From: a virus
Strand: one strand, 5' to 3'
DNA: 25,128 nucleotides
Virus record (IMG/VR): IMGVR_UViG_3300020469_004024
Coordinates: 1 to 25,128 of that record
Positions 2,574 through 15,122 of this stretch are shown piece by piece. The notes below the pieces were generated by a model. The model was given only the letters and a program-made list of their open reading frames with translations, searched no databases and was not told where the DNA came from. How positions within the stretch are numbered: position 1 is the first letter of the stretch; each line of letters begins with the position of its first letter. The translations under genes were made by a program, and so were the position numbers.

Positions 2574-2779
2574 TGTCCCAAACGCTCCAAAACGCAGTGA
2601 TAGCAATGGAAGAGGGGTGGGACACAGGGGGGTGGACAACTAGTCTTGTCCCACGTCATCCGCTCCAAAAACAACCTCGACTGAACCCTCTAAGAGGGTG
2701 GGACAAGTGAGTGCTGTCCCAGGCTCTTGTCCCAGGGCATATTCCGCTCCAGCACTGGGATCTATAGGTGTATGGGACA
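2574..2779. repeat. iteron-like repeat cluster, candidate replication origin
   Basis: Three tandem units of about 75-80 bp each contain, in the same order, TGTCCCA, CGCTCCA and TGGGACA. Unit 1 has them at 2574, 2583 and 2618; unit 2 at 2647, 2661 and 2699; unit 3 at 2728, 2745 and 2773. One extra TGTCCCA stands at 2715. Seven copies of TGTCCCA/TGGGACA in 206 bp compare with about three expected in the whole window. A CTGAACCCTCT block is also repeated (about 2680 and 2783). The cluster spans the last 140 bp of the primase-helicase gene and the gap after it. The copies fall in different codon phases, so they are not explained by a protein repeat. Confidence 0.65.
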
Positions 2780-4871
2780 CTTCTGAACCCTCTCCACGCG
2801 CGAGAACAGCTTTATAGTTTTTAGTTTGAGATTCTTTTGGAACGTCTGAGACGATGAGTCCTCGTTTTTCTAGTCTTTGGAGCGATTTACGGATCGCAGC
2901 TGAAGATCCACGGATCAGGGAGTCATAGAAGAGATCGTCCCTGGAGCGTGAGTCTGGCCATGCCGCAACCAAACGTTGAAGAACTCTGCCGGTCACAGAC
3001 GCGGGAGAGGTGTCTTTTTCATCAACAGCTGGAGTGAAATCTGAAACGGTAAAGGAGAGGTCATCAGTCATCTGCATCACCAGCTGTGTGTTGGAGCGTC
3101 CAGACCGAGACTTCTCGATGGTTATGAGGCGGCTGTGAGCGCCTATAGAGCGTTTCTCTTCATCAGTGGGCTGTCTAAGCGCCCAGGTCTCGTCAACAGC
3201 ATCACGAATGGCTGAGGTGCCTCTGAAGCCACCATTCTTGTTGGCGTGGTGAACGATAAGGATTGTGGTTGCAGGGAAGAGGACACCATTGTTTTTGGTG
3301 AGCCAATAAAGGGGTTGAGCAAACTCAGATTTGTTTTCATCAAAGGCTCTTCCACCAGAGCAACCAATAAGTGAGTCAATGACAACCAGTTTGGGTTGAT
3401 GTTTGTGCATGAGTTTGACGAACTGTGCATAACGTTGAAGCTGCCAATCAGTCAGAAGCCTTGTGTTGTCATCAATGGGGTAATCAACCTCTTCCAGCTG
3501 CTCTTTAATCTGCATCAAGCTTTGATCACCATTGAGCAGCAATATTGGCCCTTGTGCTACTGGGACGTGATTACCTCTAACGAGAAACGGTTTACCCATA
3601 GATATATGTTTAGCGAGAGCCCATGCTGTCATTGATTTACCATCACCACCAGCGCCATAGATCAAGACAACAGAGGGGTGAGGCAAGACATCAGGGATAA
3701 GGTATTCGCGTTGAGTGTCTAGCTCCATCAGCTCAGGCAAAGTTAAGATGTCTTTTTTGTTTTCATACTGAAGCTGATCAACAATCAAACGTTCTAAAGC
3801 GCCTTGATCTCTGTAGCCAGCCTGAAGGGCCAGCGTATTGAGCTTGTAGTTAACTTCAGCAGGATTATCAAGATCAAGTATTTTTTTGGCACGGTCAATT
3901 ACAACATTAAAATCAAGAGTTGCGGTACGAATTTCTTGAATTTTACGATCTTCAGCTGACGTTACAATTTTTTTTGAGTCGTCTGAAAATCGATGCCTTT
4001 CTGGATCTTCTCTATCAGCCAACCAGATCAAAGTTCCAATACCAATAGAGCCGCCCTTAAAGGAGTACCAGGCGTCTTCACAGGGATTTGAGTCTTGCCA
4101 TTCAGAGGCAAAGTCTGGATCATCTGAGGACCAAGAGGACCAGAGCATGAGGCCAGCTTCTGTAGGTAAGGCAGAGTTAATTGCCATACCAATTTTAATC
4201 CAATGATCTCTAGATCCTTTGCCTTTACATGGGATCACACCAAGGCAATCATGAATAATTTGAAAGACCTCATCTTGAGTTCTATCTGAAAAATCTAGAT
4301 CACGTTTAACCATAGTTTTTGGAGGCTGTCTCATCTCAGCCAATAGCCAATCAGGAGCCACTGGAATGGAATCAAGATCGCCTTCAATTTTATATTGACC
4401 AGGCTCAGAAGTTTTACCGCCTGGATAAGCACCAAAAATCACACCTTGACGCTTTGAGTTCCACAAGATTTCATAATCCTGATCACCCAATCCTCTACCT
4501 TTGACTTCATTCCAAAGATGTTCTGGAACGCGAAAGAGATATTTAGCAGCATTAGCCTTAGTGGAGGTAACGATAGGAGCTTTGTGGAGCGTCGAGCCCC
4601 AGGTTTTTAGGAGTTTTTTTAAGCCACGATCAACATCGAGGATAACGATACCGTTACCTCTGATCCCAGTAAAAACGCCAACGGCCTGAAGGTCGCTGTT
4701 TTTTTGGCACGCCAAGGCGACATCAGCTGGCCCAAACTTATGATCAAAACTAGCTTCTAAAGGATTTTTACCAACTGCCGGTTTACCGGAAACCATTGAA
4801 GCATTTTTGCGGTAGATGGGTGCATAGACCAGCCCTGATGGCAGGGAGTTGACGAAATCAAGAAAGTTCAT
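2640..4871 (-). CDS. primase-polymerase / PriCT-2 / RecA-type helicase fusion
   Basis: This 743-residue replication protein has three recognisable parts. Residues about 1-190 fit a bifunctional primase-polymerase domain, with an acidic VILDVDRG near residue 76. Residues about 203-285 match PriCT-2 (DEVFQIIHDCLG, WIKIGMAINS, WSSWSSDDP). Residues about 385-620 form a RepA/DnaB-like RecA ATPase: Walker A GAGGDGKS at 406-413 with Lys412, Walker B LVVIDS with Asp499, and IVHHANKNGGFRGTSAIRD as the downstream motif. A winged-helix-like segment (about 635-690) precedes a low-complexity tail encoded by the iteron-like DNA. It would prime and unwind phage DNA at the origin. The start ATG at 4871 has no clear Shine-Dalgarno. 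It leads the minus cluster 4871-1271 and is driven by the leftward promoter near 4967-4995. Confidence 0.88.
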   Translation of the reverse strand: MNFLDFVNSLPSGLVYAPIYRKNASMVSGKPAVGKNPLEASFDHKFGPADVALACQKNSDLQAVGVFTGIRGNGIVILDVDRGLKKLLKTWGSTLHKAPIVTSTKANAAKYLFRVPEHLWNEVKGRGLGDQDYEILWNSKRQGVIFGAYPGGKTSEPGQYKIEGDLDSIPVAPDWLLAEMRQPPKTMVKRDLDFSDRTQDEVFQIIHDCLGVIPCKGKGSRDHWIKIGMAINSALPTEAGLMLWSSWSSDDPDFASEWQDSNPCEDAWYSFKGGSIGIGTLIWLADREDPERHRFSDDSKKIVTSAEDRKIQEIRTATLDFNVVIDRAKKILDLDNPAEVNYKLNTLALQAGYRDQGALERLIVDQLQYENKKDILTLPELMELDTQREYLIPDVLPHPSVVLIYGAGGDGKSMTAWALAKHISMGKPFLVRGNHVPVAQGPILLLNGDQSLMQIKEQLEEVDYPIDDNTRLLTDWQLQRYAQFVKLMHKHQPKLVVIDSLIGCSGGRAFDENKSEFAQPLYWLTKNNGVLFPATTILIVHHANKNGGFRGTSAIRDAVDETWALRQPTDEEKRSIGAHSRLITIEKSRSGRSNTQLVMQMTDDLSFTVSDFTPAVDEKDTSPASVTGRVLQRLVAAWPDSRSRDDLFYDSLIRGSSAAIRKSLQRLEKRGLIVSDVPKESQTKNYKAVLARGEGSEVSHTPIDPSAGAEYALGQEPGTALTCPTLLEGSVEVVFGADDVGQD

Positions 4872-4898
4872 GTAGTATCAGAGAGTGGTGTTTAAGCC

Positions 4899-4937
4899 AA
4901 TCTCCTGGGTGCGTTTTCGCTCAGGAGATTTTTTTTA
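4899..4937 (+). terminator. rho-independent terminator, rightward
   Basis: A 9-bp stem (AATCTCCTG at 4899-4907 with CAGGAGATT at 4922-4930) encloses an inner GCG-TTTT-CGC hairpin, and is followed by an uninterrupted T run to 4937. It works only for rightward transcripts, although no rightward gene ends here. It may block antisense transcription coming through the primase gene from the left and insulate the rightward promoter just downstream. In leftward mRNA the same hairpin lies in the 5' leader of the primase-helicase gene. Confidence 0.75.
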
Positions 4938-4939
4938 TT

Positions 4940-5001
4940 CTAGCCCGACTTGACGGCTAGAACCTAATCGTATAGTATTTGAAGGCATCGGTCAACGATG
5001 C
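4940..5001. promoter_or_regulatory. overlapping divergent promoters with two palindromic operator candidates
   Basis: Rightward: TTGACG (4950-4955), 17-bp spacer, TAGTAT (4973-4978; alternative TATAGT at 4971). Leftward: TTGACC (complement of 4990-4995), 17-bp spacer, TACGAT (complement of 4967-4972). The two -10 boxes are back to back, so polymerase cannot occupy both promoters. Each -35 lies in its own inverted repeat: CTAGCC-N9-GGCTAG at 4940-4960 over the rightward one, and GCATCG-N5-CGATGC at 4985-5001 over the leftward one. This would control the primase-helicase cluster (left) and the putative ssDNA-binding protein (right). The second repeat could alternatively act as a hairpin in the rightward mRNA leader. 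Confidence 0.6.
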
Positions 5002-5025
5002 AAAAAACACATCCGTTACTACTAC

Positions 5026-5640
5026 GTGAAACTTTCTGCAACGCTTCTCCAAGCAATGGAGCAACAAAATGATGGAGGCTCTTCTAAAAAAAATTATCTG
5101 CGCTATGCAAAGCTTGAGCCAGGTTCACCTGCAAATTTTGCACTGTTAGAAGAAGATCCAACGAGCTGGTGGATTGTCTGGGGTGATCCCGTAGAAGGTG
5201 GAAATGGTCAACCGTTTCGTTTTCTTACCCAGCCAACCCAGGCTGACATTGATACCGAACTGGGAAGCAATTTTACGCAAGCATTGAACTATGACAAAAA
5301 TGGCCCTAGTAAGCCAGTTGAATGTTTAACTTGGCCTATTTACAATTGGGATTTAAACTTAGTTCAAGTGCTTGAAGTCACGCATATCACGGTGGCGCGT
5401 CAATTTATGAAATATGGACTCAATAAAAAGTATTCTAAAAACTTTTTAATGTGGGATTTTGAGCTGTCCAAGATTAAAAATGAAGGCAAAACTAGGTATG
5501 ATTTACTTATTGTTCCACGTGACGAAGACGAGCATGATGATGCTGTAATGGATGCTGCGTGGGAAGAGGCGCAAAAGAAAGGATTTGATTTAAACCAAAT
5601 GCTTGTGGGAGGCGATCCATTTAATCCAAAAGCAGCTTAA
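5026..5640 (+). CDS. putative single-stranded DNA-binding protein
   Basis: This 204-residue protein has the general profile of a phage SSB: a central region rich in aromatic and beta-strand residues (SWWIVWGDPV, FRFLTQPT, CLTWPIYNWD, VLEVTHITVARQF, NFLMWDFELSK, YDLLIVPRD) and an acidic C-terminal part (DEDEHDDAVMDAAWEEA) ending near GGDPFN. The aromatic pattern fits an OB-fold and the acidic tail fits recruitment of replication partners. I cannot match it to a named family, so function is inferred from composition and from its position opposite the primase-helicase across a shared promoter region. The start shown is the GTG at 5026, about 40 nt after the predicted transcription start; ATG 5056 is an alternative. 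Confidence 0.5.
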   Translation: MKLSATLLQAMEQQNDGGSSKKNYLRYAKLEPGSPANFALLEEDPTSWWIVWGDPVEGGNGQPFRFLTQPTQADIDTELGSNFTQALNYDKNGPSKPVECLTWPIYNWDLNLVQVLEVTHITVARQFMKYGLNKKYSKNFLMWDFELSKIKNEGKTRYDLLIVPRDEDEHDDAVMDAAWEEAQKKGFDLNQMLVGGDPFNPKAA

Positions 5641-5938
5641 TCACCTGGAGCGGCAGGGCTAGGCATTGTCATTGATGTCGAAAACCTGCCTGTCCGTAAT
5701 CGGTTGCGGAGGCTGCTAGGCCAGGCGGTCTCTTCCTAGTACAACCAGATTACAGAAATGGATTCTAGCCTTAGAGCGATGTTGGTACAGGACATGACTC
5801 CCATAATGCCATCGTTAAGGCGGGGAAGCCCGTAAGTCCGCTTCAAATACATTTACTTGACAATGACATCATTCTGATGGCATTATGGTGTCAAGAGCGG
5901 ACCCCACTCCGCCCTTAACTATTCACAGCCCTTCAACC
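5641..5938 (+). ncRNA. structured non-coding segment, identity unknown
   Basis: No convincing reading frame exists in these 298 bp, but the segment is full of complementary pieces. A compact hairpin GTC-CGTAA-TCGG-TTGCG sits near 5692-5708 with flanking GCC/GGC pairing. GGCAGG (5652-5657) can pair with CCTGCC (5685-5690). A 13-bp perfect inverted repeat, CCATAATGCCATC (5801-5813) and GATGGCATTATGG (5876-5888), is accompanied by AAGTCCGCT (5834-5842) with AGAGCGGAC (5894-5902), and by GTTAAGGCGG (5814-5823) with an imperfect partner near 5909-5920. I do not recognise tRNA, group I intron, hammerhead or glutamine-riboswitch consensus. It may be a small RNA, a leader or an operator region. Confidence 0.4.
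5857..5886 (+). promoter_or_regulatory. sigma-70-type promoter for the 5939-7649 operon
   Basis: A perfect TTGACA (5857-5862) is followed after 18 bp by CATTAT (5881-5886). The -10 lies inside the right arm of the 13-bp inverted repeat (5876-5888), so a protein binding that arm would block transcription. The predicted transcript would start near 5893, about 46 nt before the ATG at 5939. Confidence 0.55.
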
Positions 5939-6898
5939 ATGAACTCCGCAAGTCTAGCTCAGGATCAGAATCCATATAAAGACGTAACTGCCGAAATCAT
6001 TTTTATTACGCCAGAAATGGCTGCTGAAATGGTGTCTCATAATTACGACAGTAATCGTCAAATCATTAAATCAAACTTGCTAGACATCAGTAAGATGATG
6101 AAAAGTAATCAGTTTGTTCTTAGTCCAGACGCTTTATTGTTTGATACAGAGGGTGTTTTAATTAACGGTCAGCACAGGACTACGGCTGTTGTAGAAACTG
6201 GGCTAGGTCAATGGTTTCTTGTTCTTAAAAATGTAAGTCATGACATTGGCAATATTGTTGATACCGGCAGGTCTAGGACTATGTGTGATCGAATTAATTT
6301 TAGGGGAGTAGATATGACCAAGAAGGAATGTTCAACTATTCGCCACGCTCTTTGTGACGTTTCTAGTGCGACTGTTGGTACGATGCAATATACAAAAAAC
6401 TATCAGGATAATTTTGTAGCGAAACAGTTTCTAAAGTTTCGTGATTTCTTTCGGTTAGCAGAAAGCAATAATTTTACTACCCCAGCTTTTAATCCATTTT
6501 TTCTTGCTACTGCGTTAAAAATTTATGCAGAAATGCGTTTTAAAGAAGAGAAAGGTGCTTGTTTTTTGCACAACATGAGTGCTTTTGAGAGAGCCAAACA
6601 TTGGATTGAGATTACAAATTTAGGGGCACCTCAGACAAGCATATATTATCCAAATTATGATGGAGCTGCTAATCGCGCTTATCACGCAAAGAAAGAAAAA
6701 CGTGAATCAACTCCTGGAGCTGGCTTCTGGAACGATTGTCCAAGTTTGCGTAAAAGTGTAAATGCTGCTTATAAATTTATGCTTGGTGAACCAGTTAATC
6801 GAAATCTGATTGCGATAACAAAAGATCCGTTTATTTCTCTTGCTAAATTGCCTCCAACTTGCCCAAAGTATATTACTACAAACGGTGAAGTGAATTGA
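5939..6898 (+). CDS. ParB/sulfiredoxin-like domain phage protein
   Basis: This encodes 319 residues from the ATG at 5939; an upstream in-frame ATG at 5885 is rejected because it lies within the promoter and inverted repeat. The early part, ITPEMAAEMVSHN, then LSPDALLFDTEGVLINGQHR (with Gly77-Gln78-His79-Arg80) and TTAVVETG, follows the arrangement of ParB/Srx-fold domains, whose conserved motif is G-x-H-R. Family members bind or nick DNA, or act as regulators and nucleotide-dependent switches; which applies here cannot be read from sequence. The C-terminal two thirds is helical with no recognised motif. It is the first gene of a five-gene operon with overlapping stop and start codons. Confidence 0.6.
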   Translation: MNSASLAQDQNPYKDVTAEIIFITPEMAAEMVSHNYDSNRQIIKSNLLDISKMMKSNQFVLSPDALLFDTEGVLINGQHRTTAVVETGLGQWFLVLKNVSHDIGNIVDTGRSRTMCDRINFRGVDMTKKECSTIRHALCDVSSATVGTMQYTKNYQDNFVAKQFLKFRDFFRLAESNNFTTPAFNPFFLATALKIYAEMRFKEEKGACFLHNMSAFERAKHWIEITNLGAPQTSIYYPNYDGAANRAYHAKKEKRESTPGAGFWNDCPSLRKSVNAAYKFMLGEPVNRNLIAITKDPFISLAKLPPTCPKYITTNGEVN

Positions 6899-7068
6899 AA
6901 AGAATTACTTTACAGCTTCGCACAGATCAGCACGAACACCTTAAGAAGTTAACGCGACCAGGCATTTCTATTTCATGCTTGGTGCGGCAGGCTTTAGACG
7001 AATATTTGTCAAAGTCAAAAAAACATGCAATTCCGCATTTTTACATTGATCCTTTTGATAACAAATGA
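6895..7068 (+). CDS. ribbon-helix-helix protein, TTG start
   Basis: This 57-residue protein reads MKRITLQLRTDQHEHLKKL, then RPGISISCLVRQALDEYL. The strand-helix-turn-helix layout and the closing LVRQALDEYL are typical of CopG/Arc-type DNA-binding domains. The TTG at 6895 overlaps the TGA of the preceding gene, and the stop overlaps the next start (ATGA), so translation is probably coupled on both sides. It is the third ribbon-helix-helix protein in the window and the shortest, being almost only the DNA-binding domain plus a short tail. It may autoregulate this operon through the inverted repeat at 5801-5888 (inference). Confidence 0.72.
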   Translation: MKRITLQLRTDQHEHLKKLTRPGISISCLVRQALDEYLSKSKKHAIPHFYIDPFDNK

Positions 7069-10296: not shown

Positions 10297-10323
10297 AGCC
10301 CCATGTTTGGGGCTGTTTTTTTA
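10297..10323. terminator. bidirectional rho-independent terminator
   Basis: A 7-bp stem AGCCCCA/TGGGGCT (10297-10314) is flanked by an A run on the left (10292-10296) and a T run on the right (10316-10322). It would stop rightward transcription from the gene at 10053-10268 and leftward transcription from the gene ending at 10321. Confidence 0.85.
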
Positions 10324-10965
10324 TTTTGTGATTCCATGTATTCGCCGCCAAGCACACCAAGTCGTTGCCTGACAGGCACTAGGTGTGATTGATAACTCAT
10401 TCGCTGCTGCAATGTAGTCTTGTTTTATCTGTATTCTAAGTTTTTTACTGATTGCTTTCACTTTGCTTAACGCTACTTTCTGACCATTCCAGATATTGAA
10501 AGCGTGGCCGTCTACTGTAACTTCGGACGTGTCAAGTAAAATCGAATTAAAGAACTCGATCAACTTAGGTCCAGATAAAGTATCTTTAATGAAATTTTCA
10601 AATGTACTTTCAAGAATTATCTTGCCAGGACAAAGATCTTTAAGCTCATGATCTTTATTTAAGATCGTTAATGCTTTATCTTTGTTGCGATTGAACGTTG
10701 AAACTTTAACTACTGATGCTGATTCTTTATTTATTTTATAGGCTTCTATCAACTGAGTGCTGTTTCGGACGTTAGTTTTCCAGCGGTTATGCGGACTGAG
10801 CGCTGAGATGACCCCAGCTGCTGTTACTAATTGAATATCAAATTCACTACTCAAAGAATAAGCTAGTTTACATGCTGTTTTATACCATTGGGCGCCTTCA
10901 ATTCTTTCAAGATTAGTGCTTAGTTCGTATGTAGCAAGAATTTTCTTGACATTGCGTTTTGTCAT
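10321..10965 (-). CDS. phage protein resembling HhH-GPD DNA glycosylases
   Basis: This 214-residue protein has the pattern of a family I recall from many marine phages (GAQWYKTACKLAYSL, VTAAGVISALSPHNRWKTN, then GPKLIEFFNSI, SEVTVDGHAFNIW, YIAAANELSITPSACQATTW). The segment with Val-Thr-Val-Asp-Gly-His-Ala resembles the catalytic-Asp region of endonuclease III-like glycosylases (VDTHV), preceded by a helix with a Gly-x-Lys. A role in base excision or recognition of modified bases is therefore suggested, but a classical Lys nucleophile and iron-sulphur cysteines are not seen. I treat this as an inference. It is transcribed alone or with the next upstream gene and ends in the terminator at 10297. 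Confidence 0.6.
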   Translation of the reverse strand: MTKRNVKKILATYELSTNLERIEGAQWYKTACKLAYSLSSEFDIQLVTAAGVISALSPHNRWKTNVRNSTQLIEAYKINKESASVVKVSTFNRNKDKALTILNKDHELKDLCPGKIILESTFENFIKDTLSGPKLIEFFNSILLDTSEVTVDGHAFNIWNGQKVALSKVKAISKKLRIQIKQDYIAAANELSITPSACQATTWCAWRRIHGITK

Positions 10966-13779: not shown

Positions 13780-13868
13780 GTATAGATAAATGATTTTCCC
13801 AATGATAACCCCATAGGGAGCCGTGTGACCGGGGGGCAGGGGTCAAGAAACTATGTATTGTGATAGAC

Positions 13869-15122
13869 ATGAGTCAAAAATCCGAACCTATTCAACTTCG
13901 ATGGGCGCAAGGCGAAGTTTTTTCATGTGAGAAACGATTTCGAGTATTAGTTGCGGGTCGCCGCTTTGGCAAATCGTATTTGTCATGCGTTGAGTTGTTG
14001 CGTGGAGCGATCAACCGTCCTGGGGAGACATTTTTTTATTGTGCGCCAACGTATCGAATGGCAAAAGACATTGCGTGGCGAGTTTTAAAGAAGCTTGTAC
14101 CAAAGGTATGGATCAAAAGCAAGAACGAAACTGATTTAAGGATTGAACTAATCAACGGTTCAATGATCGAATTAAAAGGAACAGAGAATGCGATGGCATT
14201 AAGGGGTCGAAGTTTAAGCGGTGTGGTGTTAGATGAGGCAGCATTTATGGATTCAGAGGTATGGTTTGAGGTTATACGACCAGCTTTAGCGGATAAGGAG
14301 GGCTGGGCATTATTTATTTCTACACCTGACGGAACAGCGAGCTGGTTTTATGATTTATGGTGTTATGTAGCCGAAGATCCAACAGAATTATGGCAACGGT
14401 GGAGTTATACAACAATTGACGGCGGCAATGTAAGTGCCAAGGAGGTAGAAGCAGCCCGTGCTCAACTTGATTCTCGAACGTTTCGGCAAGAATTTGAAGC
14501 AAGCTTCGAGAATTTAACAGGATTAGTTGCAGTTAGCTTTTCGGACGAAAACATTTCAGAAAAAGCCAAAGATATCAAGATTCAACCATTATTACTGGGA
14601 GTTGACTTTAACGTTGACCCAATGAGTGGAATTTTAGCAGTAAAAGACGGTGAAACATTATATGTATTTGATGAAATCATGTTGACTGGAGGAGCGACGA
14701 CATGGGATTTTGCGGATGAGGTTACACGTCGTTATGGTGTGGATCGAAGGATTATTGCATGTCCCGATCCAACGGGCGGAGCGCGAAAAACACAAGGTGT
14801 TGGGGTAACAGACCATGCAATTTTACGTCGAAGTGGATTTACGGTTCAATCACCAAGGGCACCATGGAAGATTCGTGACAAGATTACATCAGTAAATACA
14901 GCATTAATGGATGCAGCCGGTCAGCGTCGTACAGTGATCCACCCACGATGTAAGACCTTGATCAAATCATTGAGGACATTGACGTATTCACCGGGAACAG
15001 GATTACCAAATAAGAATTTAGGAGTGGACCACGCATTTGATGCTTTTGGATATTTAGTTTTACAACAATTTAATCTGGCAAAACCAGAGACGATGGGTAG
15101 CACTTCTTATCGGTTGTATTGA
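13869..15122 (+). CDS. terL: terminase large subunit
   Basis: This 417-residue packaging ATPase-nuclease starts at the ATG at 13869 (a GTG at 13860 is an alternative giving 420). Walker A GRRFGKS is at 30-36 with Lys35; Walker B VVLDE is at 119-123, with Asp122-Glu123 as catalytic residues. The RNase H-like nuclease domain follows: LLGVDFNVDP with Asp246, and GVDHAFDAFGYL with Asp387 and Asp391 at the C-terminus. The protein cuts the concatemer and drives DNA into the prohead through the portal. The length is normal. No Shine-Dalgarno sequence is visible. It opens the rightward structural module. Confidence 0.93.
   Translation: MSQKSEPIQLRWAQGEVFSCEKRFRVLVAGRRFGKSYLSCVELLRGAINRPGETFFYCAPTYRMAKDIAWRVLKKLVPKVWIKSKNETDLRIELINGSMIELKGTENAMALRGRSLSGVVLDEAAFMDSEVWFEVIRPALADKEGWALFISTPDGTASWFYDLWCYVAEDPTELWQRWSYTTIDGGNVSAKEVEAARAQLDSRTFRQEFEASFENLTGLVAVSFSDENISEKAKDIKIQPLLLGVDFNVDPMSGILAVKDGETLYVFDEIMLTGGATTWDFADEVTRRYGVDRRIIACPDPTGGARKTQGVGVTDHAILRRSGFTVQSPRAPWKIRDKITSVNTALMDAAGQRRTVIHPRCKTLIKSLRTLTYSPGTGLPNKNLGVDHAFDAFGYLVLQQFNLAKPETMGSTSYRLY

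Follow-up and report, generated by a model that had tools for sequence, protein, structure and literature searches.

A conserved junction between divergent primase-helicase and SSB genes in phages, with predicted plasmid-like antisense control of the primase-helicase

Organization of the primase/SSB junction

The window (the whole 25,128-base virus record analyzed here) carries a leftward primase-helicase gene and a rightward gene for a single-stranded DNA-binding protein (SSB), and on and between these the following features were placed, promoters and RNAs being predictions:

2640 to 4871, minus strand: primase-helicase, 743 amino acids (AAA_25, E = 3e-18; PriCT_2, E = 1e-13; Prim-Pol, E = 2e-5), target of the predicted antisense RNA
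4849 to 4878, plus strand: P1, rightward promoter spanning the primase start (−35 TTGACG at 4849 to 4854, 18-bp spacer, −10 TAGTAT at 4873 to 4878; 9 of 12 consensus positions)
4872 to 4930, minus strand: putative 5′ leader of the primase transcript, 59 nt, with complementarity to the predicted antisense RNA over 46 nt as calculated from coordinates
4885 to 4936, plus strand: predicted antisense RNA of ∼52 nt (14-nt tail, hairpin, U run), its start placed 7 nt after the −10
4899 to 4936, plus strand: rightward intrinsic terminator (stem 4899 to 4930, 13 pairs; T run 4929 to 4936)
4937 to 4942, minus strand: P_L, conserved leftward −10 (TAGAAT) for the primase mRNA, with a presumed start near 4930
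4940 to 4960, no strand: left palindrome CTAGCC-N9-GGCTAG, clade-specific
4950 to 4978, plus strand: P2, promoter driving the SSB arm rightward (TTGACG-17-TAGTAT), conserved among relatives
4967 to 4995, minus strand: previously proposed leftward promoter (TTGACC-17-TACGAT), at best specific to the clade of the window
4985 to 5001, plus strand: right palindrome, a putative 5′-terminal hairpin of the SSB mRNA (z = −3.4)
5002 to 5025, plus strand: SSB leader, G-poor (G fraction 0.04) and predicted to be unstructured
5026 to 5640, plus strand: SSB, 204 amino acids, gp32 fold by structural matches

No close DNA relatives of the window were found among named phages. Residues 2 to 285 of the primase-helicase matched a plasmid-borne replication protein of the CyRepA1 family from Synechococcus elongatus (28.2%, E = 6e-11); against NCBIfam the protein gave no match at E 0.01, and its only named-phage match was to Synechococcus phage S-CBS4 (25%). 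A preliminary description of this DNA had assigned the first gene of the right arm to an ssDNA-binding protein, and structural comparison bears this out, the best matches to the model (mean pLDDT of 86) all being gp32: the top four rows were gp32 chains (Z of 9.1 to 6.9), with 1gpc first (Z = 9.1, rmsd of 4.3 over 158 aligned residues) and the SSB of PRD1 as the next row after them (6.4). As modeled, the 204-amino-acid protein has the gp32 core fold. A plain Foldseek search with the same model returned no match at E 0.001 and no gp32 among the best 50 listed. In an alignment with 21 relatives (homologues of the protein, 27 to 74% identical to it), 10 of the 22 members matched the phage SSB family phrog_1607 (best E = 1.5e-5), and the window's own protein matched no family, phrog_1607 included. 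Its search against named phages found no match; the SSB of one other junction (L048) gave a 30% match to hypothetical proteins of Flavobacterium phages. The label “ParB-like” that had been attached to a 337-amino-acid protein further along the arm found no support, with no ParB family match for it at E 0.1.

Motifs in the window and assembly of the comparison set

The preliminary description had read the intergenic region as two divergent promoters with touching −10 boxes, each with its −35 inside a palindrome that would bind a ribbon-helix-helix (RHH) repressor. A direct sequence check located every letter of these motifs as described: rightward TTGACG (4950 to 4955) and TAGTAT (4973 to 4978), leftward TTGACC (reverse complement of 4990 to 4995) and TACGAT (reverse complement of 4967 to 4972), both with 17-bp spacers and with −10 boxes that do touch, and the palindrome arms CTAGCC (4940 to 4945) with GGCTAG (4955 to 4960) and GCATCG (4985 to 4990) with CGATGC (4996 to 5001). 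The pattern TTGAC-N18-TAnnnT occurred twice in 25 kb, at exactly these two sites (1.0 expected; two or more occurrences in 29 of 100 shuffles), and a 9-of-12 promoter scan gave 19 sites in 5 kb versus 9.7 ± 3.1 in shuffles. No further exact copy of either palindrome was found in the window, and matches with at most three mismatches were near chance (left, 7 against 5.8 expected; right, 11 against 6.7 expected). Since promoter and palindrome motifs were thus not clearly beyond chance in the window alone, relatives were needed to decide.

The comparison set comprised 101 divergent primase/SSB junctions, the window included, in 43 clusters. Primase homologues were taken from viral contigs (71 loci plus a second set of 80) and from four MAG contigs. 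From the first viral set the 51 loci extending to the primase start were used; the second contributed 46, the rest being contigs already in the first set or too short upstream of the start; and all four MAG contigs, which bear unrelated labels, were retained. One region with 94 nt upstream (L052) was removed at clustering, which left the 101. For the 51 loci of the first set, a script read the divergent neighbor in 47 (4 of the 51 had too little sequence, and in L045 another frame was chosen). Across the 43 clusters, a script-usable SSB start was available in 41, an SSB leader in 37 and the primase F-V codon in 37; for comparing the layout of the leftward −10 and P2, the end of the terminator was placed by hand in L030, L033, L128 and L150. 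The clusters share ancestry, so the counts given below are not independent, and the P values, which treat clusters as independent, overstate significance because TAnnnT is a loose motif and the clusters are related.

P1, the terminator and a predicted antisense RNA

P1 straddles the beginning of the primase gene, its −35 lying in primase codons and its −10 right at the start codon. In 31 of 43 clusters TAnnnT stood at a single fixed distance from the primase start, and no other offset tested had it in more than 6; as a control, the same pattern at SSB starts was present in 0 of 41 clusters. The valine codon that forms the −35 was GTC in 25 of 37 clusters, where the remainder of these genes would predict 11.5 (P = 1.3 × 10−6, clusters treated as independent), a bias that could in part stem from other constraints at gene starts. 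The −10 lay off the common offset in the remaining 12 of 43 clusters, and the −35 was poor in the most distant ones. A script detected the rightward terminator in 39 of 43 clusters, its stem sequence varying from cluster to cluster; in L128 and L150 a terminator is visible by eye, and L030 and L033 have a hairpin with a weak T run.

P1 and the terminator together predict a short RNA complementary to the leader of the primase mRNA, with lengths from 47 to 75 nt over the 43 clusters. In the window, the segment from 4885 to 4937 folds at −22 kcal/mol (z = −5.95). A strand-bias test of the terminator hairpin, with segments bounded by the two −10 boxes, showed the P1 RNA strand to be the better-folding one in 34 of 43 clusters, a modest effect (P = 0.005, shuffle-corrected). 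Rfam at gathering score gave no matches in the window; the known RNA family YenS, which had a subthreshold match within 4800 to 5100 (E = 0.19), was rejected as a candidate, and no tRNA genes were found. The hairpin loop of the predicted RNA varies within the L011 cluster (n = 11), being GGAACG in four members, GGTTCG in six and GGTTTCG in one. The GGAACG and GGTTCG forms sit on an unchanged stem, between primase and SSB, in L011, L012 to L015, L019, L022, L023, L029, L053 and L073.

Predicted leftward transcription toward the primase-helicase

In 42 of 43 clusters (all but L133) a TAnnnT reading leftward lies at most 12 nt from the terminator stem, and 20 of these 42 had a leftward −35 matching at least five of six positions at spacers of 15 to 19. 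By comparison, the leftward promoter put forward earlier at 4967 to 4995 did not hold up among relatives, where it was complete in 1 of 43 clusters, that of the window itself (−10 in 4 of 43, −35 in 1 of 43). Among six closely related junctions its −35 is TTGACC in the window, L004 and L031, which have the same hexamers throughout this promoter, and TTGCCT in L003, L005 and L006. Because the −35 of P_L in the window is degenerate (TAGGTT, two of six) while that of the previously proposed promoter matches at five of six, the start of the primase mRNA in the window is uncertain, and a switch to the latter promoter within its clade is possible; the leader would in that case be longer, with the antisense RNA complementary to a portion of it. 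The leader from 4872 to 4930 folds at −16 kcal/mol (z = −4.25). Whether the primase mRNA, too, follows a 5′-hairpin rule was considered, and no such rule is claimed: the window fits it, but the profile over 43 clusters lacks a sharp peak at one offset.

Clusters resembling that of the window have 7 nt between the conserved leftward −10 and the −35 of P2, a distance so short that a polymerase at P_L or P2 should hinder the other. The notion of a compact divergent promoter pair is in this respect retained, with overlapping RNA polymerase footprints still expected, as is that of mutual exclusion between the two arms; what changes for both is the leftward site, which differs from 4967 to 4995. P1, the rightward terminator and the conserved leftward −10 had all been overlooked in the preliminary description.

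P2, the SSB hairpin and the SSB leader

Downstream of P2, 27 of 43 clusters have a stem of at least 5 bp that begins exactly 7 nt after the −10, where +1 is expected; no other offset tested had more than 4 such clusters. These stems have unrelated sequences in different clusters. The hairpin ranked better than shuffles (rank of ≤0.05) in 24 of 43 clusters, and in 35 of 43 its folding was better on the strand that P2 would transcribe (P = 0.0013). For the right palindrome, with which this hairpin coincides, conservation was of one kind only: pairing is kept (a 5/5 stem in 22 of 43 clusters by a gapless script) and the letters change freely. Retaining pairing while losing its letters, it behaves as an RNA stem, unlike a fixed operator, and is best read as an RNA hairpin, though it might conceivably be an operator that changes along with its repressor. 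A stem-loop at the very 5′ end of an mRNA can protect that end, and the hairpin at +1 probably does so for the SSB mRNA. In L011 (about 2434 to 2653), and at the same place in L014, the hairpin is replaced by a branched element of ∼75 nt whose outer stem has an unchanged start.

The leader that follows is poor in G (median of 0.087 for SSB leaders versus 0.217 for gene starts; lower in the leader in 34 of 37 clusters), as would suit a gp32-like protein that coats its own mRNA, and, together with the gp32 fold and the hairpin, suggests autoregulation like that of T4 gene 32.

Proposed control of the junction and alternative readings

We consider it probable, with considerable room for doubt, that the junction from 4849 to 5025 is a conserved three-promoter cassette that places a phage primase-helicase under plasmid-like antisense control, opposed to an overlapping SSB promoter. 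The comparison establishes conservation of the sequence parts; from these we infer that the RNAs are transcribed, that they pair and that they have a regulatory effect. Transcription of the primase-helicase would start leftward at the −10 beside the terminator (4937 to 4942), or, in the clade of the window, possibly at the promoter proposed earlier. P1, lying over the primase start codon, would fire the opposite way and end at the terminator, yielding an RNA of ∼52 nt complementary to most of the primase mRNA leader, which most likely pairs with it and lowers synthesis of the primase-helicase, in the manner of plasmid copy-control RNAs acting on Rep proteins. Pairing is expected because the anatomy resembles that of RNAII of plasmid pMV158 and because antisense control operates near CyRepA1 on plasmid pSYSA. 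Convergent transcription may add to the repression. P2 would drive the gp32-like SSB from a site that overlaps the leftward promoter, so that the arms would compete for RNA polymerase, and the SSB mRNA would open with a hairpin at +1, behind which an unstructured and G-poor leader is possibly the site at which SSB represses its own translation. Two hallmarks of copy-control antisense RNAs of the pMV158 RNAII kind can be recognized in this sequence: a promoter on the opposite strand at the start of the replication gene, and a short, intrinsically terminated RNA predicted to be complementary to its leader.

Part of this arrangement would also be accounted for if the terminator were an insulator only, blocking rightward read-through before P2, with P1 weak or silent. 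Its position just before P2 would serve that end, and the −35 of P1 is degraded in several clusters, but the retention of the P1 −10 and of the GTC codon forming its −35, together with a start-to-terminator distance that stays within 47 to 75 nt, makes an insulator alone an unlikely explanation. P1, the terminator and P2 also stand in tandem in one direction, as they would in an attenuator from which P1 transcripts, usually ended at the terminator, extend into the SSB arm with the help of an antiterminator; since that arm is already served by P2, we hold this to be very unlikely.

Repression of two touching promoters by RHH proteins, each bound to the palindrome over a −35, is in our judgment improbable, even though all its motifs are present in the window and its two promoters are the only strict matches there. 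RHH proteins include the plasmid repressor CopG, and two matches to the family were obtained (2141 to 2401 and 6895 to 7068), both weak and below Pfam cutoffs (E = 0.0022 and 0.0036); a 97-amino-acid protein at 1271 to 1564, supposed to be a third, had no Pfam match. Against this model stand the leftward promoter, complete in one cluster of 43 (that of the window), and the fate of the palindromes, whose conservation between relatives had been proposed as a check. The left one was perfect (6/6) in 2 of 43 clusters and is confined to the clade of the window, where it is whole in the window, L003, L005 and L006, broken in L004, and whole with both arms changed in L031, this paired change being a point in favor of an operator. 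The right one drifts freely in sequence with its pairing kept at +1, and is branched in L011 and L014. On conservation, the palindromes are therefore rejected as a matched pair of operators. Reading palindromes as operators from a single genome, as was done here at the outset, can fall once relatives are compared; the site itself is real, and is of interest for reasons other than those first given.

Relation to known systems

The closest parallels to the antisense control favored here are found in plasmids. RNAII of pMV158 has a 17-nt tail and a single hairpin with a 6-nt loop, ends in 8 U-rich nucleotides and prevents repB mRNA from being translated; the repressor CopG acts alongside it (PMC4485353). 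The predicted phage RNA would likewise be a short tail-hairpin-U-run molecule directed against the mRNA of a replication gene, with the differences that the plasmid gene encodes a rolling-circle initiator rather than a tailed-phage primase-helicase, that the phage junction adds a divergent SSB arm, and that the phage RNA and any role of RHH proteins are predictions. On pSYSA of Synechocystis, a highly transcribed antisense RNA beside the CyRepA1 gene is used in copy control (PMC9978351). The likeness there (asRNA1 at ssr7036-CyRepA1) is an antisense RNA next to the gene of a primase-helicase Rep, a family that the phage primase resembles; asRNA1 differs in being ∼150 nt long with three stem-loops and in covering, instead of the leader of rep itself, a small gene that lies upstream.

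Further likenesses are with systems outside plasmids. In Bacillus subtilis, the antisense RNA ArrA overlies the 5′ UTR of dnaA, which encodes a replication initiator, though this system is chromosomal and concerned with a different protein. The lambda pO promoter opposes a replication-region promoter and makes a short RNA, OOP, that affects replication; OOP, however, pairs with cII mRNA, and there is no SSB arm. Extrachromosomal mycobacterial prophages have origins with RNA-based initiation, with no antisense cassette at a primase leader mentioned in the abstract describing them. For the SSB arm, the leader of T4 gene 32 contains a pseudoknot and then an unstructured stretch, and the phage junction shares with it a gp32-fold SSB and a structured 5′ element ahead of an unstructured leader; its plain hairpin stands in place of the T4 pseudoknot, and the likeness drawn between the leaders is one of architecture. 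T4 gp32 is reported to repress its own mRNA (PMC535899). The titles and abstract openings searched contained no description of an antisense RNA against a phage primase leader. The predicted junction is best read as a variant of plasmid-style antisense control, directed at a phage primase-helicase.

A broader and more speculative extension, which we regard as rather unlikely, is that plasmid-style antisense RNA controls the primase-helicase throughout a large and widespread group of tailed phages and also sets replication compatibility, with one phage shutting down the replication of a related one that enters the same cell. An antisense RNA could do so because its action is in trans and close relatives differ in its loop, a variation that does not discriminate between readings, as the loop of a plain terminator would vary too. 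Should the antisense control favored above be borne out, a broad and largely unnamed group of phages would have, at the heart of its replication region, a copy-control logic known from plasmids, coupled to an SSB arm whose leader resembles that of gene 32, and plasmid and phage replication control would be tied together; the order P1-terminator-P2 would be a ready marker for finding such replication modules; and superinfection incompatibility by an RNA of ∼50 nt would become directly testable.

Other features of the window

Elsewhere in the window, the 337-amino-acid protein (5885 to 6898) matched phrog_5931, a family of unknown function (E = 7e-25), and a 214-amino-acid protein (10321 to 10965) had strong matches to DUF7178 and phrog_3842, also of unknown function. 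The large terminase subunit (13860 to 15122) had 2,180 matching records, and its nearest counterpart was in cyanophage S-2L (43%), a phage known for its modified DNA. The intergenic stretch after the SSB gene (5641 to 5925) folds better than shuffles (z = −3.1), and a perfect 13-bp inverted repeat (5801 to 5813 and 5876 to 5888), accompanied by further nested inverted repeats, is found around a promoter-like sequence (TTGACA at 5857, CATTAT at 5886).
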